64,000 bases of DNA from Allacma fusca. Lineage: Eukaryota; Arthropoda; Collembola; Symphypleona; Sminthuridae. Below, in pieces: positions 1,291-44,904 of this stretch. The translations under genes and the position numbers were made by a program. Position 1 is the first letter of the stretch. The number at the start of each line of letters is the position of its first letter. The stretch is from contig OX359245.1 in assembly GCA_947179485.1 (NCBI GenBank), positions 19,207,067-19,271,066 on the forward strand. The letters are read 5' to 3'. The notes under the pieces were generated by a model. That model was not told the DNA's origin, did not search any database, and saw nothing but the letters and a program-made list of their open reading frames with translations.

Positions 1291-3599
1291 ATGTCGTGCA
1301 TAATTTGCAATGAAAATTTATCTCCGGAATTGAACATCAGCTCTTGCCAATTACCAAGGATCAGACAAATGTCAAAAATTTTGCAAAGGTTCTGCTCACT
1401 TTTTGATGTGACTTTGCCACTGGGTACGATTCAATGGGATTTTTCCAAAGAAAGTCTTCCATTCTGTTCAAGATGTGGTCAAATGGTTAAAAAACTGGTG
1501 GACCCGATGCAGAAGCGTCAGTCAGACGGGACAGAGTTGACTAAAATAGCGGTCCGGGTCAAATCTCAAATTGCGAAAATAAATTCTAAGGACAGTAGCA
1601 GTAGTGTCAGTCATAAGAGATGGAAGAACAGCGATGTAAGAGTGGAGGCTCTGAGGGATTTAATTATGGGTCCTTGTTTAAGTAAGAGGATTTTTTTTAT
1701 AAAGTAGGAAGGAAGTACTTGATTGTTTCAGCTATTGATTTAATATTCACTCGATGTTTTTTTTGGTGATAGAACTGGAACGACTGCATTCGCCTTCAGA
1801 CTCTCGTCCACTTCAAATGATCAAGGAGGAAATAGTTGAACCTGTTGAGGGTGCCGAAGATGACGAGATCAATGAATTTCACTTTGCTCCTATTGAAACT
1901 CTGGACAATACAACGGCGGACCCTGTGCCTCTACCTGCAAATCTTGATTCGAAAACCTCAAATACACCAAAGCGCCGGAAAAAATTCATGCCTCCATTGA
2001 AATCTGATGACACTGTAGTTAAAACTCAAGATCTTAAGATGAAAAATGGTGTGAATGTTCCAAAAACCGAAAATACAAGTGATTGTTTAATGGCTGAGGA
2101 GATCGTTGAAGATATTAAAGCGATCCCAGCTACCTCTGAAATTAATATTGTTTCTGGAGATATTTCGACCGAAACAAATGGAAACAACAAGGGGGAGGGA
2201 AAGAAAAAATCTCAACTTTCGGTTAAAGATGAGACAGGACTTTTAGTTTATTGTGATGCAAAAATGACGGTGGACGTTGTTTTAAAAGATCCAAATGCAG
2301 CTTCGGATGATGACTCAAGTAGTGACGATAGTTCAGGGTTGTCTGAAGAAGAAGAGCCTTTAGATCCAGAGTTTACATTCCCGGTTGATGATAAGGAAAA
2401 ACCAAAAAGAAAGAGAAAACGAAAGGGTAAAAAGAAACGGTACCCACCCTCGAACAAGGGTGTTACGGAGTTGGGCAACGACCAATTCCTTTATTACAAG
2501 TTTAAGTACAGTGGAAACGATCAGGATGGTTACAAATGCGGCAAATGCAATACCGAAACAGTATACAAAAATAGAGAAAATATGTACAGGCACATAAAGA
2601 GATCGCATATTAGAGGTAGGTATAATTTAATCACGTTGGTATTTGATATACATTTTTTTAAATATTGGATTCAGACAATCAGAGCATACCTTAAGATGTT
2701 TTATTTCTTGATTGCTATTTTCAGAAGGGCTAAACGAAGATGGTGATTCAGACGCGCCAGGATATACATGTTCGAAATGTGGGAAATGCATGACAACGTC
2801 TCTGGGACTGAAGTATCATATGCAAACGCATGATGACAGTTTCATCTTTATTTGTGAGCACTGTGGAAAGGAGTGCAGGGGCATAAAGGCTTTGCAAGGC
2901 CATACGAGGCGAGTGCATCTGCACGTTACAAGAGTAGTAGATTGTGATGGATGTGACAAGAAATTTAAAGATCGGATGTCATTGAATCGGCACAAGAGAC
3001 AAGTACATATGAAACAGAAGAACGTATTTTGTGAATTTTGCGGAAGAGGTATTAATTACTCTAAAATTTCCAACCGTATAAAAATATTAAATTTTTTGTT
3101 GCTGTGCATTTATTTAGTTGTTTTACATAGACATGACCTAATTACGTGACATGTTTGGTTTATAGGATTTTTTAAGAGTAACCAGCTCAAAACCCACATA
3201 AATTCTGTCCACGCCAGGTTCAGACCATTTTGTTGTGATTATTGTGAAAACGCATTCACCCAAAAAGGTGCTTTGTCCAGACATTTGAAGATGATTCATC
3301 CCGATTTGACACGAAAAGTTCCAGAAGGCGAACAAACAGAGCCGGAAGAATGGAAGAAATTAAATCTGCCCTGCAAATACTGTTGTATGCGCTACAGTCG
3401 TCATAACGACTTGACCATGCATCTAAAACGAGTCCATGAAATTAATGTAAAAGGGTTAAATTGGAAAAGTAAAGCACCTCGGAAAATTCTGGAGCAAGTT
3501 ACTGCGGAGCCGGACCTGGTTGTACAAAATGTCACAGTCTGTAAAAAGGAATCACATGAAGTGCCAGAGCATGTAGCATCTGAGGTTGAAATCCAGTAA
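1291..3599 (+). CDS. ZAD-like C2H2 zinc-finger protein A
   Basis: Four exons: 1291-1681, 1773-2615, 2725-3048, 3166-3599; all junctions phase 1; 663 residues. Exon 1 carries the ZAD-like domain: CxxC at residues 3/6 and 59/62, a helix with FCSLF and a WDF motif between, then a basic helix ending in RDLIMGPCLS. Exon 2 is an acidic linker followed by a Lys/Arg stretch and a conserved module (FLYYKFKYSGN, then CxxC-x14-H-x4-H). Exons 3-4 encode six C2H2 fingers; the fourth is split by the intron just after CGRG. The tail EINVKGLNWK is shared with the other family members. ZAD proteins are nuclear DNA-binding regulators that dimerise through the N-terminal domain; target and role here are unknown. 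Assignment to ZAD rests on layout and Cys pattern, so it could be a related treble-clef domain. Confidence 0.85.
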
Positions 3600-4404
3600 A
3601 AACGTTTTTGCATCTCCAACGTATTTCTTCCCTACAACATGCCTCTCAGTTCAAGAAGTTCCTTATAGATTTTTGAATTTGATGTTTGGACAGCTAAGAT
3701 GAATTTAATAATTGTACACACTACTTCACAATTACAGAGTAAGTGCTTGATTTAAAGGTCACTTTTAAGAGGAAAGTAAGAATATATCTTTTTGACAGCA
3801 GTGAAACCAAAAAAATACTCTCTTCACTAATCTTGATTAGGATTGAATCGTTCGTGAATTGTGAACATGCCCATATGTAATCCTGATAATTAATTAATAA
3901 TAAGTATTGTTATTAAAGTTGGGTACACGTCTCCTTTTATAACCATACCTTTGTTAATATAATGTAAATAAAATAGAGAAGCTAGATTTTGTGTTCAAAA
4001 CAGCCGTTTTCCAATCTGGGAAGTTTTACAAAACGGATAAAAACGACAAAACTTGTATCATCCAATTCATTATTGTACCAAATTAATTACCTCATCCCCT
4101 TGTGCTGCATCCTTATTTCCATAATTTTAACTTAGCCCTGAATAAAATTAACTTATGTATACTTTTACTAAAGAAAAAATTTAGACGTCCTTGCCAGTGG
4201 TACCCAATTGGGGCATTGAATCCAAGACGGTTGGAAAATATTTTCATTTGAATTAAAGTGTCTAAATCATGGTTTTTAGGGTTGGAGAAAATTTTAAAGG
4301 AAGTTTTATTGCACAAAAGAATGGATACTTTAGGCATTCCTTTCTTTTATATTTCACAAATTTCAATTAACTAAATCTCAGAATTAAAGTTCGAAAAACC
4401 AAAT
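3600..4404. other. 3' UTR of gene A and spacer
   Basis: AT-rich. An AATAAA polyadenylation signal at 3967-3972 may end the gene A transcript. No coding exon is evident before gene B. Confidence 0.6.
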
Positions 4405-6308
4405 ATGTCCTGCATAATTTGCAATGCAATTTTGCCTAACCACTCAAATTTTGGCAGGTGTTCTCATAATAGCGTTTTTGTAGAAATGAGGGAATTACTT
4501 CTGGAAAGTTTTTGTAACTATTTTAGCATAACTTTGCCTATAGGTACAATTTCATGGGATTTTACTAGAGAGGGATCCCCGTTTTGTCCAAAATGTTTAG
4601 AAATGGCGGAAAAGCTTGTTATGCCAAACCGTAAATTTAATTCATGGGAAAAAGACGTGACTCGAACGGAATTATGGATCAAGTCTAAAATTAAGGGCAT
4701 AAATTCAAATACTAATTGTAAAAATACTAAGAGATGGAAGAGTACCGATCAAAGGATTGAGACTTTGAGAGACTTGATTGTTGGCCCTTATATAAGTAAA
4801 GACTTCATGAGCACGATTTTTGACTTTATTTCCATAAATTACATTTTATCAAAGGATAAACCTTAATTAATTATTTAAAAACGTGATCATAATAATCTTA
4901 TTTTATATAACAGAATTAAAAAGACTACCTCGGAACAACCAGACATCTGCCAATGAGAATCTTCCCCAATGCATCATTTACCAGGACACAATTGAACCCG
5001 GGAATAATGGCTTCTATAGGAATGAATTGCAAGGTTTATGTTCTGTCACGGGAAGTAACCCTGGAGACTTTCGTTTGAAAGATTTTGACAACAGTCAAGT
5101 TAGGGAGGACAAACTAGGTGGAAAAAATAACTCTGAAAATGATGACCCTTTAAACATTGAATTTACGGTAAATAATCGCTCCGAAGATAGCCTGTGCAAA
5201 AAGAGTAACACCAGGATAGAGGGAAGTAACGGCAGAATCAAAGTCATTTCGGATATTGCTGTGTCACTTTGTAATCCTTTGGGAAATGATTTTGTACCAT
5301 CAGCAAGGGATGAAACTATATCTGAATCAAAAGAAATGAAAATATCTGGAGAGTTAAAAAATATCGGGATAATTAAGAAATTGCGGAAACCGCCCGGGAC
5401 AGGCAGAATTGTTAGGAGATCGAAAAATGTAGGGGAGGGCAATTACATTTATGATAAGTTCAAGTTTACTGGAAGTGAGCTTGAAGGGTTCAAGTGCGAT
5501 GAATGCACTGACGGATACACTTTTCGCACAAAGAGAAACATTCGGAGACATATTCTCAAATGGCATTTACGAAGTGAGTATTACTAATAAAGTAGTTTAA
5601 ATATTTTTCAAGGAATGTATAAATGTGAATTTCATTTAATTGTTTTGAATTGCTAATAAGGCTTCAGCTTAACAATTTTATGCTGTTTTATTTACAGATG
5701 GAAAAAACGTAAATGAAGGTGTCGAATTTTTATGTCCTGTTTGCGGAAAAGGTCTTTCAACGTCTCTTTCATTGAATCGTCATTTGGAGTCTCACGATGA
5801 CAATTGTATTGCCGTTTGCGAAATTTGCAGGAAGGCGTGCAGGGGTCCAAGTGCCTTAAAAGCACATTTGAATACAGTCCACACCGTGGCGAACCAGTTC
5901 CCCTGCGATGAGTGTAAAAAAGCATTTAAACTGCAGAGGTCATTGACAGTACATAAAAAACAAGTCCATAAGAAACACAAGAGCGCATTTTGTGAGACGT
6001 GTGGGAAAGGTAAGGCTTTATTTTTTGAGCAAACAATTTTAAAAAATCAAGCGTATCATGACGTCCATGAATGACCAAAAGTTCTAGTTATTACTGTCGT
6101 ACAAGAAAATTAACTCAACTTTGAAAATATTCAATTCGTTAAATGCAAAACATTATTTTCTTGTTTTCCAGGATTTTATAAATTATACCAACTGAAAATT
6201 CATGTGAGTGCCGTCCACGCGGAATTAAAGCCATTTTGTTGCGATCACTGCGGTCTGACATTCAGTCATAGAAGTGCTCTGATGAGGCACATCAAAAGAA
6301 AGCACTGA
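4405..6308 (+). CDS. ZAD-like C2H2 zinc-finger protein B, short C-terminus
   Basis: Four exons: 4405-4795, 4914-5573, 5698-6009, 6172-6308; all introns phase 1; 499 residues. The ZAD-like domain has Cys 3/6 and 61/64 with a WDF motif. The linker is shorter and less acidic than in the paralogues and lacks the DEDFxLPDD motif. The exon-2 module is present (YIYDKFKFTGSELEGFKC, then H-x4-H). Five C2H2 fingers follow. The last exon stops with TGA directly after the fifth finger (RHIKRKH), so the final finger and the conserved HHINVKGLxWK tail found in A, C, D, F and G are missing. It looks like a family member that lost its C-terminus but keeps open frames and intact splice sites. An AATAAA at 6806-6811 could end the transcript. 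Confidence 0.82.
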
Positions 6309-7200: not shown

Positions 7201-9592
7201 ATGAATTGTATAATTTGCAATCATATTTTGCTTCCTGAAGATTCCATCAAAGAAAATGAATTTGAAAATAGGATTGGACAAAATCAGGATAAATTCCTTT
7301 TGCACAGTTTCTGTCGTTACTTTTATCTCAAATTACCACTAAATACAATTGAATGGGATTTTAATAAAGAAATCCTCCCTTTTTGTCGGACATGCAAACT
7401 CATAGCAGCAAAATTGGTGAGGTTGAATAGGAAGCTGGAATTACTCAAAAACGAAGTGTTGGAGACAGAGAATTTGGTGAGGACAAAAATTATTAAAATT
7501 CCCAACAATCGTTTAAATTCTGAGAGTGAACGTCTCAAAACTTGGAGAAGCCAAGACTTACGAATTCAGTCAATTCGGGATATAATTGTCGGTCCTTGTT
7601 TGAGTAAGCAAGTTTTAATTTTGTCTGAATAATAGATATTAATTAAAAATTCACTTGGACTTGTCTGACTATGAGTTATTGTTTTTATAGGGTTAGAAAG
7701 GATACCACTCAGTGAAGTCAACTGTTCCAAAATGACGATTAAAAAAGAAGAACCTGGGACGGTGGTTGATGAAGATTTCAGTTGCGATGCATTTCTAGAC
7801 GTAGACTTTGCTCCGGACAGTCCGTTTGAATATGAAAACCCTGATTGGACTAGTAGTTCTGGTTCTAGGAAGCGAACAAAAGATAGTAATTTCTGGAAAA
7901 ATTCCAAACGGAAAAAACTTTCGCCCGAAGGGAGTAAAAAGAAGGGGAAGACAAAATTTAAGCGGAAGAGAAGCTCTGCATCCCGATGTCTCAAGAACTC
8001 AAAAAAGTTTGTTAAAGCGGATGCTAATTCAACTGCTGATAGTGCTGGGGTGACAATTGAAGAAGATCAGACAGATGCTGGGGAGGAAACGAATGATTGT
8101 TCTATTTTGGGCGAGGAGGATACTGGTAGTGACTCAGATGAGTCCTTTGATGAAGATCCTTCGGACGAGGATTTTGTTCTCCCAGATGATACAATGGAAA
8201 CTATTAAACGAGATAAAAAATTAACCTCGAGGGTGAAAAGCAATATAAGATGTAAAAATTCAGAGAAGAATAAGGTTAATAGGGGAACAAAAGTCAAAAT
8301 TGAACGTCTGGGTGAGGACAAATACTCATATGCTGGCTTTGAGTACTGTGGTAATGAGAAGGATGGCTACAAATGCTGCCTCTGCACTGATGGACATGTC
8401 TACCCCAGAAGAAGGAACATCCACACACATTTACTTAAATTGCATTTAAAAGGCAAGTGGTTTAAGAAAACATTCGCTAGCATTTTGGATCGGATTTTTT
8501 TTTCAACTCGGAGCTGTTCTAAAACTTGGTTCTGAAAATGTTAATGGTGTTGTTTTAAACTTAGGTCACGAAAATTTCTTGTGCCCTATTTGTGGAAAAG
8601 AACTGAAGCGTGCATCATTGAAATACCATATGGAATCTCACGATGACAACTGTATCGCCATTTGTGAAATATGTGGGAAGGAATGCAGAGGTGCAGGACC
8701 TTTGAAACAGCATATCAAGTTGTCTCATGTGATGGAATCGAAAATGGTGTGCGAAGTTTGTGGGAAAAAGTTCAAAGCGAATTCGAATTTGAACCATCAT
8801 ATGAAGGCTGTTCACCTGAAAGAAAAGAATGTATTTTGTGAGATTTGCGGGAAAGGTAAAATCTTGACAACTCATCTGAAATTCAAATTGTTATCTAAAA
8901 AACCGTAAAAGTTTGTCTGATTTTGTGTAGCATTGGAATAATAGTCATTTCGATTATGCTGTACTCTTTTATAAATTCTCACAGGTTTTTACGGATCGTC
9001 ATACCTCACCCATCATATGAAGGGCAGGCACGCAACCGAGAAACTTTTTAGTTGCAACCTTTGTGGTCAGCGGTTTGTACAAAAAGGTAGTTATACCAGA
9101 CATTTGCAGCAATTTCATAGTCAGGCTCAGTCGTCAGCCACTGCACATGACAACCAGTCAGTATCGACTGCCTCGACAAGCTACCAACAACAGAATCATC
9201 AAGAAGAGGCAGCTCTGGGAGAGTCAAGTCTCCGCTGCAAGTATTGCGGATTGAAATACAATCGCCAGAACAATTTGACTCGACATCTTTTACAAATCCA
9301 TCACATCAATGTCAAAGGTCTCGCTTGGAAACATAAGGCTCCCAGAAAAATCCTCGAGAAAGTTTATCTGCAGCCTCAGCCTGATTTTGTAAACAAATCT
9401 GTATGCCCCAGCCAGCCTGAGCCAAGAAATCAGGGGAGTCCAGATCCAACAGTAAACGTCTTGCCTCTGACTGAGAGTTCTGAGCCTTCTTTCATGATGA
9501 ACTCTTCAGGAAGTTCAACCCACACGGACGAGTACTCCAGTGCTACAAACATTTGGGATCGAGGGTTTGATATACACACTAGCAATACTTAG
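7201..9592 (+). CDS. ZAD-like C2H2 zinc-finger protein C
   Basis: Four exons: 7201-7603, 7691-8452, 8565-8855, 8985-9592; all phase 1; 687 residues. ZAD-like domain with Cys 3/6 and 62/65, FCRYF and WDF. The linker has a Lys-rich part, then an acidic run containing DEDFVLPDD (8164-8190), then the module with SYAGFEYCGNEKDGYKC. Six C2H2 fingers follow, the last inside an especially conserved block (CKYCGLKYNRQNNLTRH, then HHINVKGLAWK). A Ser/Thr-rich tail of about 80 residues ends the protein. Intron 2 appears to use a GC donor (AAAAG|GCAAGT at 8453), which keeps the frame exactly as in the paralogues. AATAAA at 9783-9788 may terminate the transcript. Role inferred: sequence-specific nuclear DNA binding. 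Confidence 0.87.
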
Positions 9593-10631: not shown

Positions 10632-12890
10632 TCATTTCTCGAACTGAGCCACATGTTCCGCCAAATTAGGCAACATTTTTTTCCATGGCACAGCCTCATC
10701 TTTCTCTCCTGAGTTCCTCAAAGTAACTCGAATCCACTTTGGGAGCATTTCTCGTTTACTTATCTCATTCCACTTGCAGTCCAACATAAATATCGCACCC
10801 CAGTTGTACTTGTGCCCAATATTTCTTCCAATGGCTTGATTCAAGGCTTTCAAAGCGTTTATGGTCCACCATTGGTTACCATCCAACAAACCAGATTCCC
10901 TATTACTGTTAAATCTACGGTCCTGATATTTAATTTTGTTTTCAATGAATAAATCCTCTTTGGGGAGAAACGGAATTCCAATGGTAACCAAAGCTCTTGA
11001 ATGGACGTCCTTAAGATCAATGGTCTCAGAAAACTTGCCTCGCATATAAGCAAATAAGATAGCTCCTCCATTTAGAGCACTTTCTCGGTAGCCATCCAAC
11101 AATTCTTTTACCTCCGTCGATGTCATACCTTTCCTTTCCACTTTAATCTTCTTATTTTCTTTGATAGCTTTCCAGCATCCATTTTTCTTCCAGGTATCGA
11201 TCATTTTGGAAACATTTGTCTGGGGCGACACAAAAACAATAACTCCTTTCGGCACAGTGCGGCAGATGTCAGTAATAATTTTTCCAAGTTGGCGCTGGAT
11301 GGACATCCATTCCATACTATTTTCCTTGTAACTGAAGGTGAGCTCAAGAGGATGGTTGCTACGGCCATCATATTTGTTGATTAATTTGGCGAACAAACGA
11401 CTCGTTTCGACAATGTGGCATTCAGAGCGTTGACGATGGAATGGGATGCCCAACTGGGTGGAAAGCGACTTCATAGGAGATAAAGTTCCAGATGTGATGA
11501 TGACGGAGCGTGCAACATTCATTTGTTGAAATGCTACCCCAGGATTCATGCACAAAATCTGAAGGTTCACTTCTGGCAATGCGCTTGTCAAGAAAATTTT
11601 AAATTCAGATTCGTTACGGCTGTATGTGTCACCTTCCCACAGAAATTCAAGAACGCCCAGAAGATCTCCCACAAATCTCAGGACTTCTCGACTGACCTTG
11701 CCTCGACGTCCATTCGTTTCAATTGGATAGGGGCAGTTGTTCAAAATGTTGTAACTCTTGCGCAACTTTGAAAGATTACTTGGACCAAAACCAGTTGATG
11801 CAAACCAATTTAGAAAGTCTTGGAAAAATATTTCTACCGGTTCCGAAAAAATGCATGAAAGAGCCAGAAGAAAATTACGGAAATTTTTTAATGTTTCTAC
11901 TACTACTCTCAAAGGTTCTTTCTTTTCCAATGACACTGACACTGTCGAAGAATTCAAGTCTGATTCCAGGATGGAAGTGAAGTTGGTCAGATTTGTGTAC
12001 GTAAGGAAATCTTCAGGCGTGGAAGATATTTGGTAGCAAACATTCTCCACATTATGTCCCTCATCAAAAATAACGATGTTGTTGTTCAAATGTAGATCCA
12101 GAGCTTCTCGCATGTTGGCTTTTAGCAAGTATGAGTAGGTGCAAAATATGATTCTAGCATTTTTGACAGCGTCAAGAAGCTCAAAATATGGGCAAGTTTG
12201 AAAATGATTGTTTTTGTTGGATTTTTCACAAAAATCCTTCAAATCTGAGATTTTCCAGGTTTGGTCTTTCTGTCCTCTCAAATGCTGACACCATTTAAGA
12301 TTTTCGGGGTTGTATTGACAAAAGTGCTCGTCAGAATCAGCGTCCTCACACTGATAATCGTTGAATTCATTTTTGCAGGAGTTTACCATACTCGTCAAAA
12401 TTGCCATGGGGGTGTCTGTGTAACTTGAATGTTTCAGTTGATCGACGATTTGGTCAATATGCTTCAGAGTTCGGGTTGCGTAAAATATTAGGGGAACTTG
12501 AGAGGATTCCCCGTTCTGATTCACACTGGTCTTGCTTTTCTTCGGGGGAGAACATTCAAGCTCGAGATTGGCCTTTTCGTGTTGTTGCCACGCCAGTGCA
12601 GAACAGAGCAAAGTCGCCGTTTTACCCGTTCCTGCTGGTGACTCCAGAAGACAATTTTCACGTGCGATAAGAGCTTGGATAATTTCCTCCATTAAATGTT
12701 CTTGACAAGGATAGGCTTTCCCATACGGAAATTGGATTTCAACCCCTTGGTAGTTCAAGCTGGACGTCAGTTTTAAAGAGTCTTTAATTTCATCTATGTC
12801 CACAAGGAAGTCTTCCACTTCCTCAATGGGGTATGAAGTACCAAGATGGAGTGAATTATTGAGATCATCGTCGACGTTCTGTTGTTTCAT
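10632..12890 (-). CDS. FANCJ/BRIP1-like superfamily 2 helicase, copy 1 (degenerating motifs)
   Basis: Intronless coding region of 752 residues starting at ATG 12890; an open frame extends upstream but probably crosses a 5' UTR acceptor. FANCJ is a 5'-3' Fe-S DNA helicase of interstrand-crosslink repair. Seen: Q-motif FPYGKAYPCQ, Walker A SPAGTGKT, a cysteine-rich Fe-S region ending in TCPYF, Walker B DEGH instead of DEAH, motif III SGTLSPMKS, and a FANCJ-like C-terminal helicase lobe. FANCJ is favoured over RTEL1 or DDX11 by LLCSALAWQQ, by MNPGVAF and by the motif VI context. Motif V reads GKFSETIDL (copy 2: GKFSEGIDF) and motif VI reads QAIGRNIGHKYNWG, losing the second Arg and the Asp. Activity may be lost. 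A MITE sits about 110 bp upstream. Confidence 0.82.
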   Translation of the reverse strand: MKQQNVDDDLNNSLHLGTSYPIEEVEDFLVDIDEIKDSLKLTSSLNYQGVEIQFPYGKAYPCQEHLMEEIIQALIARENCLLESPAGTGKTATLLCSALAWQQHEKANLELECSPPKKSKTSVNQNGESSQVPLIFYATRTLKHIDQIVDQLKHSSYTDTPMAILTSMVNSCKNEFNDYQCEDADSDEHFCQYNPENLKWCQHLRGQKDQTWKISDLKDFCEKSNKNNHFQTCPYFELLDAVKNARIIFCTYSYLLKANMREALDLHLNNNIVIFDEGHNVENVCYQISSTPEDFLTYTNLTNFTSILESDLNSSTVSVSLEKKEPLRVVVETLKNFRNFLLALSCIFSEPVEIFFQDFLNWFASTGFGPSNLSKLRKSYNILNNCPYPIETNGRRGKVSREVLRFVGDLLGVLEFLWEGDTYSRNESEFKIFLTSALPEVNLQILCMNPGVAFQQMNVARSVIITSGTLSPMKSLSTQLGIPFHRQRSECHIVETSRLFAKLINKYDGRSNHPLELTFSYKENSMEWMSIQRQLGKIITDICRTVPKGVIVFVSPQTNVSKMIDTWKKNGCWKAIKENKKIKVERKGMTSTEVKELLDGYRESALNGGAILFAYMRGKFSETIDLKDVHSRALVTIGIPFLPKEDLFIENKIKYQDRRFNSNRESGLLDGNQWWTINALKALNQAIGRNIGHKYNWGAIFMLDCKWNEISKREMLPKWIRVTLRNSGEKDEAVPWKKMLPNLAEHVAQFEK

Positions 12891-13002
12891 TGTAATTGAA
12901 TTTTCAGGAACTCCGGAACAGAACCTGATATAAATAAAAAATAAAAACACGAGTTGTAATTGCCTGCAGTTAGTAAACTCTTTACACAGCAATAGATGAG
13001 AC

Positions 13003-13177
13003 CAGGGGTGGATTTACGGGGTGGCCCACCCTGGCCCGGCCAGGGTAAAAAATTTAGGGCCAGGGTAAAAAAAATGTTGACTAAGGCCCTCAGATTGCAG
13101 ATATCATGTTTAAAGGTCCACAAATCTATTTCGAGGGTTAGGGCTAGGGTAAAAAATATTTTATTAATCCATCCCTG
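13003..13177. mobile_element. hAT-type MITE, 175 bp, with 8-bp TSD
   Basis: Ends are CAGGGGTGGATTTA and TTAATCCATCCCTG, an inverted pair that fits the hAT end rule (YARNG). It is flanked by a perfect 8-bp target duplication GATGAGAC at 12995-13002 and 13178-13185. Too short to code for transposase. A second copy of the same length lies at 35619-35793. The paralogous site near 16920 lacks the element and reads GATGAGCCAATTT, giving the pre-insertion state. Confidence 0.9.
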
Positions 13178-13185
13178 GATGAGAC

Positions 13186-16811: not shown

Positions 16812-17455
16812 TGTAATTGAATTTTCAGGAACTCCGGAACTCCGCAAGCTGATAAATAAAAAATCAAACACGAGTTGTAATTGCCTGCAGTTAGTAAACT
16901 GTTTACGCTTTACATCAATAGATGAGCCAATTTGTAACACTTAGGCATTCAAAAACTCACGATTATATATTCTCAAAGTAAACCGTAAGCCCAGGATTAA
17001 ATTATAGCAGTGAATTGGAATAATTCGAATAATCCACAATCGAAGTAATTTTTACGTAAAAGAGAACTTTTAAGTTACGAATTACGCGAAGCAATCCAAC
17101 TGTCTGACGTCGAATAAAAATATTCAGAGTTAAACAGAATCTGGTCTCTAAGATAAACAGTGTAGCCTCCGGAAAATCCAAGAATCGAATGAATTTAAAC
17201 CTTAGAATGTTTTCTATTTTATGCCCCAGAAAATTTATCGCTGGCATGATAAATGCTGGGTTCACAGAAGGTAATCCAGTTAATCCGCAACTAAAAATAG
17301 TCAGGATAAATAGGTGCAAACTGGTATTATCACCTTATAGAAAGCTCAAGGGATTACAAAAACTTTTTAACAAACCCAGAAAACTGCATACAAATTCATA
17401 AATACTCAAATTTCATAACTAAAAATAACCATAGAAGGCCGATTTTCAAAGTAAA
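14502..17455 (-). repeat. segmental duplication, unit 2
   Basis: Partner of the unit at 10632-13680. It shares the helicase coding region, the 5' UTR and the flanking sequence up to about 17455. It carries about 60 bp near 17040-17110 that unit 1 lacks, and it lacks the MITE at 13003. Confidence 0.85.
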
Positions 17456-21971: not shown

Positions 21972-23985
21972 ATGTTGTATTATCATTGCATAATTTGTAG
22001 TGATAAAATTTCGCCCAGTAAAGATAATGCAGAGACAAAAATATTAATTGTCGAAAATTCTCAGGAAAACAAATTGAAGCAAAATAGGAATAAATTTGTA
22101 CTGCAAGGGTTTTGTCGCTACTTTCACATCACACTGCCTCTCCCTTCGGGTGAATGGGATTTGACCAGGGAAGAAATGCCCTTTTGCCAAAGATGTGTCA
22201 TCAAAGCTGAAAAAATTGTGAAGCTGACCCGGAAACTAAAATTGCTGCAAGAGGAGTTGACTGAGATTGATCTCTGGGTCAAATCACAAATTATTAAAAT
22301 TTCTGGGGACTCGTCCAAAAGTATGCGGAAGAAGTGGGCATGTGAGGACCCAAGAGTTCAAACTATTAGAGATCTCATTGTAGGCCCTTCTATAAGTAAG
22401 GATTCTTGATTTCAAGACTTATGTCTGGAATAGAGTTTGGACATGAATAATTTATTGTTTTGTTTGCAATTTTCAAAAGTATTGTGAGTAATTTATTTTA
22501 GAAATGTCAAGGGCTGTTTTTGAACGGAACTAATTCTCTATTGCAGATCTAACGAGGCATACTTCAGTCCGTTTGCCGGAAGTTAGGACTTTGGAGCCTC
22601 ATTTCTTGGACGATTATGGCTACGACCACGAGGTTAAATATACGGATGTGATTGATGTGAAGGAAGAGAAGACTTGGGATGGTATTCCTTCGTTGAAGGA
22701 AGAATCAGCGGATGATTTAGATGATTATTCCGGAGGTAGCGATTTTGAGCTTCCGGATGTCTCGAGTACTTCTGATGAAGAGAAAGAACCGAGGGTGAGA
22801 CAGTCTAGAAAAAAGAAAAAGGTAGAGACTGGAGATAAATCGGAGCCAGATCGAGTCGTTTTTAAAACAGTTCGTATCGGAGAAGACAAATACCTGTATG
22901 GAGAGAAACTTGAGTATACTGGGAATGTCAAGGATGGATTTAAATGCTCGCAGTGCACGGATGGGCATGTGTATCCTAAGAAAAGACATATTGCTTCTCA
23001 TTTGAGAATTCATATGAGGGGTAAGTAGGTGATTTTAATTTATAATCAAAGTTACTAAGTATGGGCTAAACAACAATTCCTTATAGTAAATAAAGAAAAG
23101 AAAGATTCAATCACAGTTTAAAGATAAATCTCTTCTGATTAATACAATGTAATCGATATCGAGTAACTGTCGTAATAAGAAGTAATAATATGCCGTAAAT
23201 AAGTGGTTTCAACTTTGATTATTTCTTTTTCTGTGGGTTACATATAATTTATTGGCTTGTTGCAGTTCCTGGAGTTTACAAATGCCATATCTGCGCCAAA
23301 GACTTGTCAACTGCTTGGGCATTGAAGTACCATATGGAGTCTCATGATGACAGTTGTGTTGTTATTTGTGAAGTCTGTGGGAAGGCCTGCAAGGGTGTTC
23401 AGGCTTTAAAATACCACCATAGTGCCGTTCACAAGCAAGACGCTATCATGTACGAGTGTGAAGTCTGTGGGAAAGCATTTAAAACCAAAGCTCTTTCACG
23501 TTCTCACAAGAAGCAAGTCCATCTAAAAATAAAAAACTACTTTTGTGAGTTATGTGGTAGAGGTACGAATGTTTTAGACTATCTTTATGCTAAAGTCGTA
23601 CTGTTCAAAAGCAAATCTGTTAAAATTGAATATCGTTTGGACAGGGTTTTACGGTTTGAACGCCTTGAAAAGACATCATGGTACAAATGCTCATTCATCT
23701 GAAAAGCCATTTAGTTGTGATGAATGTGGACAGAGATTTAACACGGAAGCTCATCGCGGTCGGCACATTAAGCAGTTTCATACTCCATCGATCGGATCTC
23801 CAATTAACGAAGAGGAGGCTGTGGGGGATCCGAACCTTCGGTGCACATACTGTGGACTTCAATATAATCGTCAGAATAACTTAACCCGTCATCTCCTACA
23901 AATCCATCACATCAATGTCAAGGGTCTTGCTTGGAAAACAAAGGCACCGACAAAAATACTGGAGAAAGTTACAAAGTTCGATTGA
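21972..23985 (+). CDS. ZAD-like C2H2 zinc-finger protein D
   Basis: Four exons: 21972-22395, 22547-23020, 23266-23562, 23645-23985; all phase 1; 511 residues. The N-terminus is MLYYHCIIC, so the first CxxC falls at residues 6/9 instead of 3/6; the second is at 72/75, with FCRYF and WDL between. The linker is the shortest of the family apart from B's simplified version and contains GSDFELPD, a variant of the acidic motif, then a Lys-rich patch and the module YLYGEKLEYTGNVKDGFKC. Six C2H2 fingers follow. The protein ends just after HHINVKGLAWK and KILEKV, without the Ser/Thr-rich extension of C and G. It stands alone, separated from A-C by the helicase duplication and the F-box gene. Confidence 0.86.
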
Positions 23986-26023: not shown

Positions 26024-26999
<976 letters not shown>

Positions 27000-32590: not shown

Positions 32591-35239
32591 ATGTCTTGCA
32601 TAATTTGTAACCAATGTTTACAAATAAATAATAATGCATCTGACGAGGTGTGGATAAAAAGTGACCCTGAGAAGTCCAATCATGAAACAATTTTGACACA
32701 TTTTTTCAACTACTTTCACATACATTTACCACTTGCTTCCGAATACTGGACCTTGACCGCAGATGACCTCCCATTCTGTCCCACCTGTGAGTACATGGCA
32801 GGGAAACTTGTTGACCTGAAGGAGAAGCTAGAAATTGTGAAAAATGACTTGGCTGTGACGGAACGTTGGATGAAATCACAAATTAAAAAAATTTCACGTT
32901 CCACCGGATGCAGTGACCTTTCAGACAAACAGTCGAGGGAAGATGCAAGAGTTCAAACGATTCGGGATTTAATTGTGGGACCTGTTATAAGTAAATGGAC
33001 ATGAATATAGATTACTTATCTGGAATATGTTTTATGGTGTTGATTTTTTAAAGTCTAATTAATTTCTTTAGGATTGACAAGGTTACCTAAGACGGAGACC
33101 CGAGTCAGAAATTATAATAACCAGCCGAAAGCTCCTTCAGAAACTGGAGGGAAGAAATATCGAAGATTATCAAGGAAGAAAATAAAGTCTGAGGTTGATA
33201 CAGAGACCTTCTCTAAGCCTGATGTTTTAAATGGTAGTCAGACAGAGCTATGCACAACGGCTGTGGGAATTAAAAAATTAGGGAAAAACAGTCCCAAAAA
33301 GAAAACTGTCACTTCAAGTGAAGGTATCGAAGAAACAAAACCACTGGAGCTGCTGGAGGGGGTTTCAGAAGTTGTAAACTCCAATGAACAAATATTACTT
33401 GATTCGCAAAATGACCCCGACAATTTTACTGATTTGATAGTATTAAAAGGCGAGACTGTGACATTTGAGTTAGCATTTGCCAAAACTGTGGATTCCTCAG
33501 ATTTTAGGGATGAAAATTCAGTAGTTCCAGAACTGGAAATTGTTGAAGAAGTGCCGAGGTTTTGTCATGAAGAGATTGTTGAAGAAGTCCCGAAGTTTTG
33601 TCATGAAGAAATTGTTGGAGGTGATGATATCCTTGATTTGGAAACTGACCCATTGCAAAGTGCTGGTGATTCTGTGGACGAAGATTTTGTGGTGTCCGAA
33701 GGAGAAGAAACCGCAGAAGCTGAAGAAGAGGAACGATCAGATACGGAAACCAAAAAGTATGTTGGTTTAAAACAACAGGGTTCATGTAATCCGTTCTCAA
33801 AACCGGCAAGGGCAATTAAAAAGTTAGAGGGAGAGGACAGATACCTGTATCATGACAAGCTGGAGTTTACAGGGAATCCTACTGTTGGTTACCAATGTAT
33901 TAAGTGCTCAAATGGACATAATTACGCGAATAGGCATGGAATCTATTTACACCTTCGGAATCATTTACGTTGTAAGGACGGAAATCGATATTTACATTTT
34001 TATTTCAAGTTTGTATAATTACTTTTGAAATTTTTAAATACTAGTTTAATATTTTCACAGATCCGGACCGCTCGAAAAAATCACGGACATCGAAAGAGAA
34101 AGTAAAACGAATCGACGGAGAAGATGATAGATACATATTTGATGGTAAATTAGAATTTATGGGAAATGACCAAAGCGGTTACAATTGTTCCTTGTGCCCG
34201 GAATGGACGTTTCCAAACCAGGAACGCGTTTTGCGACACTTTTTAATTCATTTACGAGGTATTTTTTAAACAACAACAAGCAGAGCATTAAAGGATGAAC
34301 GCAAAAATATAATGCAATCCACTTTTGTAAAGCAGCTGTCTGATAAACACACTTTTGTTTTTACAGATACAACTTTGGGCAATACAAATACAAAATGTCC
34401 GATTTGTGGGAAAGTGCTCGTGAGTCCCGGTGGATTAAAAAACCATATAAAAGCTCATGACGACAGTTCCAAGCTAATTTGCGAAGTCTGTGGTAAATAT
34501 TGCAAAACTGTTAAGGCTCTGGGATGTCATATGAGGTTTAATCACGGGAAAGTGGAATTCCATGAGTGTGACATTTGTGGAAAGAAAATCCGGGGAGATG
34601 ATTCCCACCTACGGAGTCATAAGAATAGTGTGCATTTGAAGTTGAAGAAATGGTGTTGTGAATTTTGTGGAAAAGGTAAGTAATCAATCTTGGCACGAAA
34701 ATATGTTCAAATAAACAAAATATAATAAAATGCTGTAGCCTATACTATACTTATATATAAAATAACAGAATTCCGTTGGTTTAAGTCATTATTGATTAGC
34801 CTTTTTATAATTTATGAGCTAAGATAGTTTAACATTTTAATTAATAAATCGAATGAAACACATTTTTACAGGATTTTCGTATGGTCCTAGTCTTCAAAGA
34901 CATCTCTTGTCTGCAGCTCATTCCTCTGAAAAGCAATACAGTTGTGATGTTTGTGGGGAGCAGTTTAGACATTTATTATCCAAGATCAAACATATGCGTA
35001 GGTTCCATAGTCAGCCCTCAGATAATGCATCAGCAACTCAGCAGCCGGATTCTGAGGTTCAAGACTCTGATGAGGACGTAGGGCTGAAATCCCTACGCTG
35101 CAAGCTTTGCGGGTTAAAATATCAACGAAATTGTCATCTCACTCGGCATCTAGCTCAGATTCATGGAGTTGTTAGTGAGAAAAAACAACCCAAACTTGGA
35201 AAGCGGCAAGCGAAAGCAGTAACTGTGACGGATACCTAA
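32591..35239 (+). CDS. ZAD-like C2H2 zinc-finger protein E, with duplicated exon
   Basis: Five exons: 32591-32990, 33072-33971, 34061-34258, 34367-34675, 34872-35239; all phase 1; 724 residues. ZAD-like domain with Cys 3/6 and 63/66. The acidic linker contains two copies of a 12-residue repeat (EIVEEVPxFCHE) and a partial third, then DEDFVVSEGEE. The module that normally ends exon 2 (YLYHDKLEFTGN, then CxxC) occurs there and again in the extra exon 34061-34258 (YIFDGKLEFMGN, then CxxC). The second copy's Cys/His set looks complete. Exons 4-5 encode six C2H2 fingers; the final finger is present, but the HHINVKGLxWK tail is replaced by a Lys-rich end. The duplicated exon is symmetric (phase 1-1), so it adds a domain without a frame change. 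Confidence 0.85.
33536..33619 (+). repeat. coding tandem repeat, 36-bp unit
   Basis: Units 33536-33571 and 33572-33607 plus a partial third, encoding EIVEEVPxFCHE each time. Unique to gene E in this family, so probably a recent slippage or unequal-exchange event in the linker. Confidence 0.85.
34061..34258 (+). repeat. duplicated module exon within gene E
   Basis: 198 bp, flanked by CACAG and GTATTT splice sites. Its product repeats the end of exon 2: GEDxRY, a KLEFxGN core, GYxCxxC and a terminal HLR before the splice. The two copies have diverged in most other positions. Confidence 0.8.
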
Positions 35240-37364: not shown

Positions 37365-37448
37365 AGGTTACTGCTGGTATAGCGAGTCTACTCTGTAAAA
37401 AGCTATTAAATAAAAAAATAATGCATTTATTTCTATTGTATTTCCCAG

Positions 37449-38616: not shown

Positions 38617-40894
38617 ATGCCTTGCATAATTTGTGATCAAAATGTGACCCTTGGGGATGCTAAGGACCATTTCGATGAGATCGAAACGGGTGAAAGCAGC
38701 AGGAAATATATTTTACTCAATTTCTGTCGTCATTTCCAAATCAACTTCAGCGTTCCATCTGAGCAGTGGGATTTGATCCCGGAAGACCTCAAGTTCTGTG
38801 GGGAATGTCAGACAATGGCGGAAAAACTGGTGGAATTGACTGTTAACCTGGAAATATTGAAAAGAGAATTGTCAGATGTGGAAGGTTGGGTGAAGGCTCG
38901 AATCAAAAACATTTCAGCACTTCAGCTAAATCGGAGTACCTTGAAAGCTTGGAAAAGTGAGAACTCCGGGGTCGAGGCTATTAGGGACATCATTGTTGGA
39001 CCTGTTTTGAGTAATTAAGAATGTTATTGTGTCTATTTAATTTAGTGTTTATTCATTTATGGGTTTGAAATAGTTACTGGACGTACATTATTGTTTTGGT
39101 ATTTACTTTGACAGGACTCCCGAGGGTGCCCATTACCACTACTGTCACAAATTTCCTGGCTCCGATTTCTGTCAAAACGGAAAGTGCTGGTGCTGATGAG
39201 GGACTTTTAAATAACTACTCTCCGGGCAGTAATTACAGTAGCCCTGGTTATGAAATAGTTGAAATCAAGGAAGAAGGGCTTAATTCGCAGAAAAAAACTA
39301 GAAAGAAACGAGGGAAATATTTGAAAAAGTCCAAGCGAGCAGCTCAACCAGAATTTAAAATAAGGACGAAGATATCAGCTATGAAAAACCAGCCAAAAAC
39401 TTCTTCTTGCGAAGAGCTTACTGAGGATGTTCAAATGGACCATGTCTCAAACGAAGTTTTGAAGCAAGAGGCTGTCGAAAACGCTACTTTTGATTCTGGC
39501 TTGAATGATGAATTCTTAAGACCACGGCGAGCCAGGAAGTCTAAATTACTAAAGTCGGAATCTTTCAGTGAAGATGATATTGACGATAGTAAGGGGGAGG
39601 AAGGTGGAAACGCTTCAACAATTCATGACGATGACAGCTGCAACGAAGATGGTCTCTTACAGGATGGCGACTATTTTGAAGACGATGACGATGAAGACTT
39701 TATTCCACCGGATGAAGCTGATGCTGATGGAAATGTTTCCGAAGATAAGAAATTGGAATCAAAAATTAAAAGCTCGCTTCGAGCGAAAAATTCTCAAATA
39801 GACAGGAAGTCAGTTGTATTAACGAAAGTTACCAATTTGGGAAATGACAGGTATCTTTATGGGGATCATTTGGAGTTTACTGGAAATTTGAAAGAGGGCT
39901 TTAAATGTTCCCTGTGCACAAAAGATCATGTTTTTCGATTGAGACGGCACATTTGTACGCATTTGAGGGAGAAGCATTTGAGGGGTAAGGTTGATTATTC
40001 CGGTATATATATATGTATTGTTACGTTCGGATGATTCAAGTACATACTAATATAAATCATTGTCACAAACAGAACGCAAAAGCTTTGTCTGCCAGTTCTG
40101 TGGTAAAAGCCTTGGATCTGATGCTAGCTTAAAGTATCACCTGCAATCTCACAATGACAGCAGCGACGCTGTTTGTGAAGTATGCGGTAAAGTCTGCAAA
40201 GGTGCAATGGCGTTGGTAAACCACGTGAAAGTGACGCACGGGAAAGATTGTTCCGGGGTTTGCGAAATTTGCGGTGCAAGATTTAAGTACAAGAACCGTC
40301 TAAATGATCACGTAAAAACTGTGCACCTTAAGGAAAAACGATATTTTTGTGAAATATGTGGAAGAGGTATTTTATAAGAAGATATTTATAATATACACAT
40401 ATTTAACTCAAAACTGTATTGTCCTTTTGAACCGAGCTAAATTACTATAAACAATTATCAATTCTGTAGGATTTTACGGAAAATATCAGATGAAAATCCA
40501 TATTGAAGAGACTCACTCAACTGTGAAACAATTTACTTGCAAACTTTGCGGCGAAAAATTTCGTCAGAGGAGTAGCTGGTGGCGACACATGGCAGTATTC
40601 CATAATAGCCGGCCGTCAGGCTTAAATGCAGTTGATGTTCAATCGAAATATGGGAAAGATGAATCTGCAGAACAGAAATCTGGGGATCCAGATCTGCGTT
40701 GTAAATTCTGTGGATTGCAGTACAATCGCCATAACAATTTGACCCGTCATCTTAAGCAAATTCATCACATAAATGTGAAAGGTTTGTCATGGAAGAATCG
40801 CCCGCCCAAAAGGCTTCTTGAGCAAATAACGCTGTTGCCTGAGGCGTTGGGCGAATTATCTTACTCCGACGAAGGAAATTTCACGAACTCGTGA
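38617..40894 (+). CDS. ZAD-like C2H2 zinc-finger protein F
   Basis: Four exons: 38617-39010, 39115-39984, 40073-40366, 40470-40894; all phase 1; 660 residues. ZAD-like domain with Cys 3/6 and 61/64 and a WDL motif. The linker has a basic part, then a long acidic run with DEDFIPPDE, then a KLESKIKSSLRAKN block that closely matches genes C and G, then the module YLYGDHLEFTGNLKEGFKC. Three fingers in exon 3 and three in exon 4 (one split by the intron). The last finger block reads CKFCGLQYNRHNNLTRH and continues to HHINVKGLSWK. A short acidic tail ends the protein. It is closest in layout to G, its right-hand neighbour in the same orientation, suggesting a recent tandem pair. Confidence 0.87.
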
Positions 40895-42445
40895 AATTTC
40901 AGTCTGACAAATTTTGAAAGAAATCGATTTAACTGTAGTTAGACCCTCTCGAATTATATTATGTGTTTATTTTATGTAACAAGTGTATACGTAGTAATTA
41001 TATTTAGTAGTTGAATGTAATACTAGAAGCTTCTTGTTAACTTACAGTATTATTGTAGTACGTGTCATAGCTAAATATGAGAGATCGTAAACTTAAGGTT
41101 GTAATGGCCGACGCCACATTATTGACCTGAATATGCATATATACTTATATATATATAATTATTGTAGTAATTAAAATATAAAAGTACGAGACCTGGAACC
41201 TGTGACAACCCAAAACCATCCACCCCTTTTGAAGACTTGTTGTCCCAGCTATATCCAATCCCTAAAAGCATTTTTTTTTCAGAAGAGACCGTAACATTTT
41301 TTCATTGATCAACATTATTTGACCTTTGTTTATACAAAAATTCAAAAGGCCAGGGTCTCACCACTTTGAACCGGTGATAAAGTAAAAAACATGAAGAATA
41401 TGGTATTTTGAAAATATATTTTAAATACATCCTTCGATTCTCTTTTAAACTGTAGCAACGCTGATAAAGTAGTTTTAGAAATAGGGGTTTCGCAGGCTAC
41501 AGAGATTTATGATTTTGTACAAAATGTCTTGGCATTTTTAAATTGCCACGCGACACAATATTGCATGTACGTTAATATTATAGAAAGCAACAGTAACCTT
41601 TGCTATCACAAAACCAAGAGTTTGGAAATAATTTTTTTTCTTGTCACCGTCCCCCCAAAGTCAATATTTCTAAAGTAATATTATGTACAAATATATTTAA
41701 AGCTATCACAGCTTGAAGTAAAAGAAACTATGGCAGTAAGTATCTGCTTGTACTGTGTATTTCCACAATGATGTAACTTGTAAAAACACAAATGCTTTCA
41801 ATACTGCAACAAGTTTAGGTTGTGATTGGGAAACACTTTTGTAATTATTAGAATAAAAACTAGCTCAAAAATTAATTGCTTTAACGTTCAGGAATACATT
41901 CTACAATCCTACAACCATACCATGTCGAATATACTAAACCATTGCAGTTTTTGTAACATTTGTTCTAATATTTTCCGCAAGCCTCAAAGTACTTACTTAA
42001 ATCAAATTGACAATTCCAGTGTAGTGATTGAGATTGCAATGGACTGAATGATTTATTTATTCCATTTTGCTAATATCATTTGAATTGTATTTACTTCATT
42101 TGGCTAATATTAATTTAATTGCAATTAGTCCATTTTGCTAATAATTTTTATTGCATTGAGTCCATGAGTTATTAGTTCTAATTTTAAAAACAAATAAATT
42201 GTCCATAATAATTTCTACAGTTATACTTGAATTACTCAAATCCAATCCCAAGGTCAAGAAAAAGTTGGCGGGAGGGTAAAAAAGATCATTGAGCTTTGAG
42301 ATCAAGAATTTTGGACAAAAACAACAAACCCTGAACGCGTGAACGAACAGAGCTAGAGCTAATCCTTGTTTTATTTCAATTAACGTTGACTTAAATACTA
42401 AATTACAACAAATTCCAATGAAACGGACCAAACGGAAATAGCAAA
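40895..42445. other. 3' UTR of gene F and spacer
   Basis: AT-rich, with short open frames that show no coding features. Several TTTGCTAATAT-like repeats occur near 42060-42140. No gene recognised. Confidence 0.55.
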
Positions 42446-44904
42446 ATGGCTTGTATACTTTGCAACAGAGAATTATTTCAAACTGAAGGCTTCGAAATGA
42501 AATTTGACCCAGCCAAGAAAAACATTTCAAATAGGCACAAATTTATTTTGCAGAGTTTTTGTCGTTATTTCCAAATGAAATTGCCCCTGGCCTTCGTCAA
42601 ATGGGACTTGACCCAGGAGCACTTCCCGTTTTGCGAACCATGTCAAAAAATCGCAGAGAGGCTTGTCAAGCTAAATAGACAGCTAGAAATTTTGAAGGGG
42701 GAGCTAAAGCTTGTGGAAAGTTTGGTCCGTTCAAAAATAAACAAAATTTCTACAAAATATCAGAATGTTCCGAAGACATGGGCAAGCCCTGACTCCAGAA
42801 TTCAAACTGTGAGGGATGTTATTATGGGTCCTCGAATTGGTAAACACAAATTTAAACAAATATTTATGCCCAAGAACAATTTAATATTATTATTCGAAAA
42901 GTTGGAACTCACATATTTGTGGTAATTTATTTGTGTTGCATAGAATTAACGAGAGCCTCTTTTGCACCTGTCACTGATTCTGTTGTGATTAAAGTGGAGC
43001 CCCTAATTTTCCAAGATGATGCTTATGAAGATTTTGATTGTTTTGAGGAGAACGTCATTCCTGAGGGAGCTTGTGACGGTATGGAAGAAACATCTCCAGG
43101 GAAAATAATTCAAAAAAAGCAGACGAAAGTGATTCGTAAAAGGACCGCCAGGAAAAGAGCCAAGGTTTCTAAGGTTTCCACGAAAAACTCGAAGAGAGGT
43201 CGGAAGATAGTAGGAGGTCAACAGTCAGGAACGTCTGATTGTCATAGCGATGGAAATGAATTACTTATGAACGTTGACATGGTTCAAGTAGATCCGGGAA
43301 TTCAAATTGAGGAACAATCTGATGTCATTCCAGAAAAACAGTCGAGGCGATGCGCCCAGCGAAGTTCAAAAATCAAAACAAAATTTGTAACTAACTTCAG
43401 AGATCTTGGGGCCTTTGATGAACCCACTGATGATTGTAATTATGAAGACGAAAGCGATTTACATGATGAGGGTGAGTTCGAGGATGATCCCAGAGACGAA
43501 GATTTTGTTTTGCCAGATGATGCGGAGGATACTTTAGCGGTTGATAGTAAGCTCAATTCGAGAATCGAAGGGAGTCTTCGAGCAAACGTTCGCCGTAAGG
43601 AGGAAATTCCAGTTCCGAAATCGTATTATGTACCAAAGGTGGTGACTCGTTTAGAAGGGGACAAGTACTTATATAAAGAGCATAAGTTCCGTGGAAATAA
43701 AACCTACGGTTTTAAATGTTGTGAGTGCAGTTCTGGGCATGTTTTTCGAAAGCGCAAGCAGGTTTTGTTACACATTAGGGAAGTTCATACGGCAGGTATG
43801 TAACTCGAATATAGTTTGACTTTCATACTACTTAGAATTTTTAGGAATAATTGTTTATAGCAGCTGTTGCTTGTTTAATTAAAGACTAAACGGAAGGGAA
43901 TACAAATCTCAATTAATTTTGTTTTTGTTGTAGTCCCGGGCAGCTCAATTTGCCCAACTTGTGGGAAGTCGTTTTCTTCAGTAATGAGGATGCGTTCACA
44001 TAAGAGAGTTCACGACGTCTCGGATGCTGTCGCCAGTATATGTGAATTATGTGGGAAAGATTTCAAAGGAGAGCAAGCCTTAAAGCATCACATTGCATTT
44101 GTTCACGAGAAGGAATCTACAGAAATGTGTGAAATATGTGGGAAGAAATTTAAAACTAAAACTATGTTGAAAGCCCATGTGACGTCAGTACATTTTCAAG
44201 AGAAAATATGTTTTTGTGAGATTTGTGGGAAAGGTACGACTTTTTGCTATTTATTCCGATGACACTCCAGAGTTGAGGTTATTTTACTAAACGTACTTAC
44301 TGGAGTGATTTAATTGTAACCTTGTATAGGTTTCAGAAGTAAGAGCTCCTTAAAGATGCATCTACAGTCAACACACGATACCGAGTCCCGTTTCGCCTGT
44401 GACTACTGTGGCCAGCGGTTTCGACGGAAACCTCACTGGAAGAGACATGTTCAGCAGTTTCATAGTGAACCTCCTCAAATAAAAGCAGCTCGAGAATCTG
44501 TACCTGCAGACGAAGAAATTTCTGTAGACAACGAAGAGGAAGCTGTCGGAGATGTCAGTTTGCGATGCAAATACTGTGGAAAACAGTACAATCGGCACAA
44601 CAATCTGACTCGACATCTTTTGCAAATCCATCATATTAATGTAAAAGGTTTGTCTTGGAAACAAGGTGCACCGCGTAAGCTTCTGGCGAAAGTCACACCT
44701 CAACCTGATGCTGTAGTGAAAAACTCATTGCTTACTCTGAGTCAATCCTCAATACTTGTTACTACTACTGAGAACCCAAATAACGAAGAAAGGAAAGAGT
44801 CTATTGAAATAAGTTCCTCTACAACATTTAATGCTCCTGAACAATTAAGTGAAATGTCTGTGCCGACTGTAGACGAGCCCGGTAGAGTCGAACCGTGGTA
44901 TTAA
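42446..44904 (+). CDS. ZAD-like C2H2 zinc-finger protein G
   Basis: Four exons: 42446-42839, 42944-43795, 43934-44233, 44330-44904; all phase 1; 706 residues. ZAD-like domain with Cys 3/6 and 63/66, FCRYF and WDL; the exon ends in MGPRIG instead of the usual GPxLS. The linker has a Lys/Arg-rich region, then DEDFVLPDD at 43495-43521, then KLNSRIEGSLRAN and the module YLYKEHKFRGNKTYGFKC. Six C2H2 fingers, the last in the conserved block (CKYCGKQYNRHNNLTRH, HHINVKGLSWK). A Ser/Thr/Glu tail of about 85 residues resembles that of gene C. An AATAAA signal lies 15 bases after the stop (44919-44924), implying a very short 3' UTR. Confidence 0.88.

Follow-up and report, generated by a model that had tools for sequence, protein, structure and literature searches.

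Seven zinc-finger genes follow one another on one strand of a stretch of chromosome 1 of the springtail Allacma fusca (19,207,067-19,271,066, or 19.207-19.271 Mb; all 64,000 nucleotides of it are called the window here), and they raise the question of what kind of family they form and what their divergence serves. We consider it very likely that these genes, A-G, are a tandem-duplicated subfamily of a divergent ZAD-C2H2 family, with a ZAD-like N-terminal domain and, at the other end of the protein, DNA binding that is specific to each paralogue. We judge the family to which the cluster belongs to be a large divergent variant of ZAD-C2H2 proteins and no new kind of system. The gene models, obtained by in silico splicing of the genomic sequence, occupy positions 1291-44904 and begin with seven ATG-opening exons (Table 1). 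The predicted proteins A-G are uninterrupted (663, 499, 687, 511, 658, 660, and 706 residues, respectively). Each gene comprises four exons, the introns being of the GT-AG type in 20 of 21 cases; intron 2 of gene C (8453-8564) is GC-AG, with a GC donor where the six other genes have GT. In the layout common to the cluster, exon 1 encodes the ZAD-like domain and an RDxIxGP motif, exon 2 the linker and an atypical finger 1, exon 3 fingers 2-4 and the beginning of finger 5, and exon 4 what remains of finger 5 together with fingers 6-7 and a tail. With no finger 7, gene B terminates after finger 6 (its stop ends at 6308); a C2H2 array lies downstream of the exon-1 domain in all seven genes. The atypical finger of exon 2 matched zf-BED at E 0.025, below the cut-off of that family. 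The linker exon of gene E contains a 36-base tandem repeat (33536-33617, ∼2.3 copies) that encodes a repeated 12-residue unit. The preliminary description of this locus had listed seven genes with the same domain order and phase-1 introns at equivalent places, and the seven open proteins and 21 of 21 introns confirm it; a shared exon plan is the expected outcome of tandem duplication and is ordinary taken alone.

The exon-1 products of the seven genes are mutually alignable, with 19 invariant residues. The motifs by which they were originally characterized hold in part: the CxxC pairs, the Trp of WDF/WDL, and RDxIxGP are present in all seven, whereas FCxYF is strict in only four (gene A has FCSLF, gene F has FCRHF, and gene E has FFNYF), and gene E has WTL in place of WDL. 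The seven genes and 24 relatives, drawn from 61 related places in the genome after dropping the near-copies L020 and L021, made up a set of 31 members that we scanned against Pfam. Four cysteines arranged as two CxxC pairs (C3, C6, C63, and C66 in gene G numbering) are invariant in all 31. Fourteen members matched Pfam zf-AD (PF07776) at E ≤ 1, with a best E of 5.7e-5, and the runner-up family was matched by just three. Three members (L033, L036, and L037) had originally been found through zf-AD itself; without the members picked in that way, the matches number 11 of 28. In five of ten rescanned proteins the match spanned the profile from position 1-2 to position 73-74 of 75, and control shuffles in which every cysteine was kept in place gave no zf-AD match (0/31). 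When profiles were compared by hhalign, the window profile matched that of the main chromosome-3 clade (16 members, including one each from chromosomes 1 and 2) at 97.9% with a pairwise E of 3.9e-13, and this clade in turn matched the most zf-AD-like clade at 95.6% (pairwise E 1.1e-8). The direct match of the window profile to the latter clade was weaker (82.3%, pairwise E 1e-5), and the window profile did not match a shuffle profile (1.3%, pairwise E 0.042). A genome-wide search with zf-AD, in which the 13 best candidates were scored exon by exon, placed none over the cut-off, and the control genomes yielded no match. The genome has at least one exon, L032 on X2, that resembles the latter half of a ZAD of more conventional type (25.7 bits, profile positions 36-73) and has C2H2 fingers in the same frame. 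Two structure models of the exon-1 domain predicted the order knuckle, helix, loop, and a long helix beginning at the second CxxC, which we take to be the order of elements in a ZAD.

The end of exon 1 provides a further link between the window genes and their relatives. We located the Arg of the motif [YFILVC]R[DNSRKGE] relative to the codon containing a possible phase-1 donor (GT and then A or G; the donors outside the window are candidates). The distance is exactly 9 codons in all seven window genes, and likewise in L019 and L029; in 18 of the 24 relatives it is exactly 6. At the other distances from 1 to 20 codons the motif was found in at most 4 of 31 members, and a control motif with Lys in place of Arg was found in at most 5 of 31 at any of these distances. 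When any Arg was counted regardless of its neighbors, distance 6 again led (19/31), with other distances reaching 12. The motif is present in two of the three members of the clade closest to zf-AD (L033 and L036). This exon-end signature suggests that exon 1 is a single inherited module reaching beyond the 75-position zf-AD model. In the gene G model the Arg motif is predicted to fall within a third helix (117-127).

The genome of A. fusca (392,743,791 bases in 91 contigs, of which the window chromosome accounts for 81,893,619) was searched with exon 1 of gene G and then with four relatives. The gene G search recovered the seven window genes, followed by weaker places. Counting hits at E ≤ 0.01, merged within 400 bases, from gene G and two of the relatives, we obtained at least 61 related places: 43 on chromosome 3, 8 on chromosome 1, 5 on chromosome 4, 4 on chromosome 2, and 1 on X2. 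The lists from the remaining two relatives, checked by eye, added no further place at E ≤ 0.01. A similar exon-1 module is thus found at 54 places beyond the window, and a family restricted to this cluster is ruled out by these searches; the term "seven-member" is correct for the cluster and not for the genome. The query L033 alone contributed 14 of the 61 places, and its clade is joined to the rest only through the profile comparison and the exon end. One place near 2.28 Mb on chromosome 3 is interrupted by a stop. A stretch of ∼1.2 Mb close to an end of chromosome 3 (∼1.42-2.54 Mb) holds 24 of the 61 places, and near-copies stand in tandem in close clusters on chromosomes 2 and 3. Only one place is on an X chromosome, although X1 and X2 make up 26% of the genome; as duplication is clustered, few independent events may lie behind this scarcity. 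All of the 12 further regions that were read had same-strand frames with C2H2 fingers; L052 showed three fingers before the region ended, L050 stood out with a five-finger frame, and the frames listed for L051 did not include exon 1. In L046 (chromosome 2) and L047 (chromosome 3), stretches containing the linker-finger exons are repeated within one locus, so that arrays may also grow by exon duplication. In a tree of the 31 members the seven window genes grouped at a fork that the tree leaves unresolved and that includes L023, on a very long branch. As labels on this tree the seven need two changes, a number reached in 0 of 500 shuffles, but a branch set them apart from all other members in only 8% of the bootstrap trees. 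The window cluster is likely, though not certain, to have a single origin.

We examined how the proteins of the window differ from each other. Mean pairwise identity was 0.39 in the N-terminal core, 0.23 in the linker, 0.44 in fingers 2-6, and 0.59 in the last finger and tail; the claim that linker and fingers differ greatly therefore holds for the linker and not for the fingers overall. The four contact positions considered in each finger are those we assume to be canonical. Divergence is greatest at the four predicted contacts in each of fingers 4 and 5, where identity is 0.06 and 0.15 versus 0.36 and 0.43 at the remaining positions of these fingers. In finger 7 the contact identity was 0.68 versus 0.55 elsewhere in the finger, and four of six genes share the contact residues RNNR. 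Six of the seven genes possess this last finger and its tail, for which the best match elsewhere in the genome had an E of 0.07.

Young paralogues among the 12 regions allowed codons to be counted in two trios, L044/L045/L046 on chromosome 2 and L053/L054/L055 on chromosome 3; the numbers are small, pairs drawn from one trio depend on each other, and the comparison is one of plain counts. In the first trio 13 of 24 predicted contact positions varied versus 23 of 139 other array positions (Fisher p 1.8e-4), and in the second trio 13 of 24 versus 20 of 137 (p 6.6e-5). By finger, the variable contacts (of 4) numbered 3, 4, 0, 2, 4, and 0 in the first trio and 4, 3, 1, 2, 3, and 0 in the second, the last-finger contacts being invariant in both. 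With synonymous change taken over the array, the ratio of nonsynonymous to synonymous change (pN/pS) at contacts was 1.7-2.2 in the first trio, compared to 0.16-0.57 at the non-contact array positions of both trios; exon 1 gave 0.14-0.63 over eight pairs. The excess of change at contacts was significant for the pairs L044-L045 (p 0.018), L044-L046 (p 0.001), and L053-L055 (p 3.7e-6). By eye, the last-finger contacts read QYSR in L044-L047, L049, and L053-L055 and QYNR in L048, with other residues in L050 and L051, so a last-finger anchor of the QYSR type is common and not universal. The contact-centered change in the trios fits diversifying selection on DNA specificity, and the results support an exon-1 ZAD-like module, predicted to bind zinc and held under purifying selection, joined to a finger array with changing contacts. 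They likewise support a division in which the fingers other than the last change at predicted base-reading positions and the last finger stays almost the same throughout a subfamily.

Several results weigh against the identification of the exon-1 domain as a ZAD. None of the 31 members exceeded the zf-AD gathering cut-off of 28 bits (best 23.7), and six of the seven window genes had no zf-AD match, the only one being that of gene D (E 0.037). Searches against profiles of solved structures with the seven genes, with the 31 members, and with the most zf-AD-like clade returned chance-level matches only, with no ZAD among them. The two structure models were of middling confidence (pLDDT 74.6 and 73.5; pTM 0.58 and 0.57), and Foldseek run on both recovered no ZAD, no known ZAD having been run as a control. 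The exon-1 tails had been inspected before the Arg motif was defined, and the motif was then widened by what they showed. An unrelated four-cysteine zinc domain that came to resemble ZAD by convergence would account for the missing cut-off scores and for the absence of ZAD among the PDB matches by sequence or fold, but we judge this origin clearly unlikely: zf-AD is matched along nearly its whole profile in relatives and in no cysteine-preserving shuffle, profile comparison connects the zf-AD-like clade with that of the window, the exon ends are alike in both (in two of the three zf-AD-like members), and the domain sits upstream of C2H2 fingers. The exon-1 domain is thus very probably homologous to ZAD. 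Because all members fall below the Pfam cut-off, it is not filed as a Pfam member and is named ZAD-like. The preliminary description, which had proposed a ZAD-like domain with its own signature, is upheld by the zf-AD matches in relatives, the shuffle control, and the profile links. The comparison with the Pfam profile that it suggested gave 14 matches at E ≤ 1 and none above the cut-off, the structural comparison did not recover ZAD, and within the window the match is confined to gene D.

The interpretation of the changing contacts has its own difficulties. In the second trio contact pN/pS was only 1.0-1.1, and the excess for the pair L053-L054 was not significant (p 0.12). L046 carries a frameshift in its linker exon, and relaxed constraint may hence account for some of its change. 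Third-finger contacts were also near-constant (0 and 1 of 4 varied in the trios), so the last finger is not alone in its constancy. Among the seven window genes, unusual contact variability over all six fingers was rejected, as 359 of 1365 position sets were as low or lower; the contrast in fingers 4-5 (3 of 1365) concerns fingers chosen after looking, and in fingers 6-7 the conservation of contacts did not reach significance (1168 of 1365 as low or lower). The rapid change of DNA contacts that was originally proposed is supported in young paralogues elsewhere in the genome and, post hoc, in fingers 4-5 of the seven, and not over all their fingers; the suggested check of substitution ratios at finger contacts, carried out as plain counts on the two trios outside the window, gave 1.0-2.2 at contacts versus 0.16-0.57 elsewhere in the array. 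A serious competitor, to which we give a little less than an even chance, is that these are ordinary transcription factors undergoing subfunctionalization and relaxed constraint after duplication, with no race against changing DNA. It is in keeping with window genes that have diverged (exon 1 is 34-47% identical to that of gene G) and are all intact, with the second-trio ratio near 1, and with the frameshift; it sits less well with change that is focused on contacts while the remainder of the same arrays stays at 0.16-0.57, and with the tandem near-copies on chromosomes 2 and 3. Gene conversion that homogenized all but a few variable codons, mimicking selection, could be favored by the tight clustering of near-copies. 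Its tracts would be expected to cover whole fingers, not to spare single contact codons in several of them, and the last-finger contact codons are invariant; we regard it as most unlikely.

For the tandem-duplicated ZAD-C2H2 subfamily that we favor, the following mechanism can be envisaged. The four exon-1 cysteines would bind one zinc, and this unit would combine with the long second helix into a protein-protein module, probably for homodimerization; ZADs have been described as forming mostly homodimers (PMC10983669). The variable linker would join this module to the DNA-binding C2H2 array, in which the conserved last finger may act as a shared anchor and the middle fingers may set paralogue-specific targets. 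Since the young paralogues change most at predicted contacts, the family probably diversifies to follow changing DNA; that it actually tracks such DNA, plausibly repeats or heterochromatin, is a tentative reading that we place somewhat short of an even chance. The tracking of satellites or transposons put forward in the preliminary description is likewise an inference. A wider proposal appears doubtful to us: that springtails have their own large, annotation-hidden ZAD radiation with a fixed C-terminal anchor finger and diversifying readers, located mostly on one autosome and almost never on the X chromosomes that males eliminate, and following fast-changing heterochromatic or repeat DNA, possibly within the machinery that handles paternal or X chromosomes. 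Paternal genome elimination occurs in A. fusca (PMC9630974, PMC10427803), and a tie of the family to it is speculation.

The closest known system is the insect ZAD-C2H2 family (ZAD-ZNF, PF07776), which has the same two-CxxC N-terminal domain, variable linker, C-terminal C2H2 array, and many paralogues. The springtail members differ in that all 31 scanned fall under the Pfam cut-off and in that exon 1 ends in a conserved hydrophobic-Arg motif outside the 75-position model. In Drosophila, selection on ZAD-ZNF genes was reported in the linker of several genes, the fingers of three, and the ZAD of one (PMC7655104), whereas the change in young springtail copies is centered on finger contacts. The tetrapod KRAB zinc fingers are alike in logic, being large families with a fast-changing DNA-binding part (PMC7655104), but their N-terminal module is different, and KRAB was absent among the families listed for the stretches scanned. 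Cyprinid FiNZ proteins also combine a lineage-specific N-terminal sequence with a large C2H2 family (PMC10547256); FiNZ itself is a 28-residue glutamate-rich stretch, unlike the four-cysteine domain. Among the matches listed in the open-access literature, no title or opening of an abstract dealt with this family, and "Collembola" and "ZAD" co-occurred as whole words only in a nematode taxonomy paper; "Collembola" is absent from the main text of PMC10547256 and PMC7655104, and "springtail" from PMC10547256. The ZAD zinc-finger expansion is placed within insect lineages by PMC7655104. A large divergent set in springtails would mean that the expansion has an older origin or occurred in parallel, and that it is undercounted when surveys apply the zf-AD cut-off of Pfam. 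The near-fixed last finger and the contact change elsewhere offer a direct test of the target DNA, in an animal that eliminates entire chromosomes.

Table 1. Exons of the seven zinc-finger genes, in window coordinates.
Feature	Positions	Strand	Basis
Gene A exon 1, ZAD-like domain with RDLIMGP	1291..1681	+	ORF (open reading frame) alignment, in silico splicing
Gene A exon 2, linker and atypical finger 1	1773..2615	+	in silico splicing
Gene A exon 3, fingers 2-4 and start of finger 5	2725..3048	+	in silico splicing
Gene A exon 4, remainder of finger 5, then fingers 6-7, tail, and stop	3166..3599	+	in silico splicing
Gene B exon 1	4405..4795	+	ORF alignment, in silico splicing
Gene B exon 2	4914..5573	+	in silico splicing
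Gene B exon 3	5698..6009	+	in silico splicing
Gene B exon 4, without finger 7, ends after finger 6	6172..6308	+	in silico splicing
Gene C exon 1	7201..7603	+	ORF alignment, in silico splicing
Gene C exon 2, followed by GC-AG intron	7691..8452	+	in silico splicing
Gene C exon 3	8565..8855	+	in silico splicing
Gene C exon 4	8985..9592	+	in silico splicing
Gene D exon 1, sole window member with zf-AD match	21972..22395	+	E 0.037, 14.7 bits, cut-off 28
Gene D exon 2	22547..23020	+	in silico splicing
Gene D exon 3	23266..23562	+	in silico splicing
Gene D exon 4	23645..23985	+	in silico splicing
Gene E exon 1	32591..32990	+	ORF alignment, in silico splicing
Gene E exon 2	33072..33971	+	in silico splicing
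Gene E exon 3	34367..34675	+	in silico splicing
Gene E exon 4	34872..35239	+	in silico splicing
Gene F exon 1	38617..39010	+	ORF alignment, in silico splicing
Gene F exon 2	39115..39984	+	in silico splicing
Gene F exon 3	40073..40366	+	in silico splicing
Gene F exon 4	40470..40894	+	in silico splicing
Gene G exon 1, genome-search query, first row of first structure model	42446..42839	+	in silico splicing
Gene G exon 2	42944..43795	+	in silico splicing
Gene G exon 3	43934..44233	+	in silico splicing
Gene G exon 4, with the last finger and tail specific to the cluster at 44551-44703	44330..44904	+	splicing, genome search

Other frames of the window lie between or beyond these genes. Two adjacent long uninterrupted frames on the minus strand (10632-13013 and 14502-16940) carry DEAD_2 and Helicase_C_2 domains and are presumably of the XPD/DDX11 type. 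They are 91-99% alike over alignment columns 100-400 and 60-74% alike over columns 400-800, as if only one half had been subject to conversion or selection. A 447-residue open frame between genes C and D (18518-19861) gave a weak F-box-like match (E 0.21). Two unrelated neighbors follow gene G: a frame at 46553-46954 with a GST C-terminal domain (E 3.3e-9) and one at 55102-55500 with a clear Ras-association domain (E 4.9e-20).

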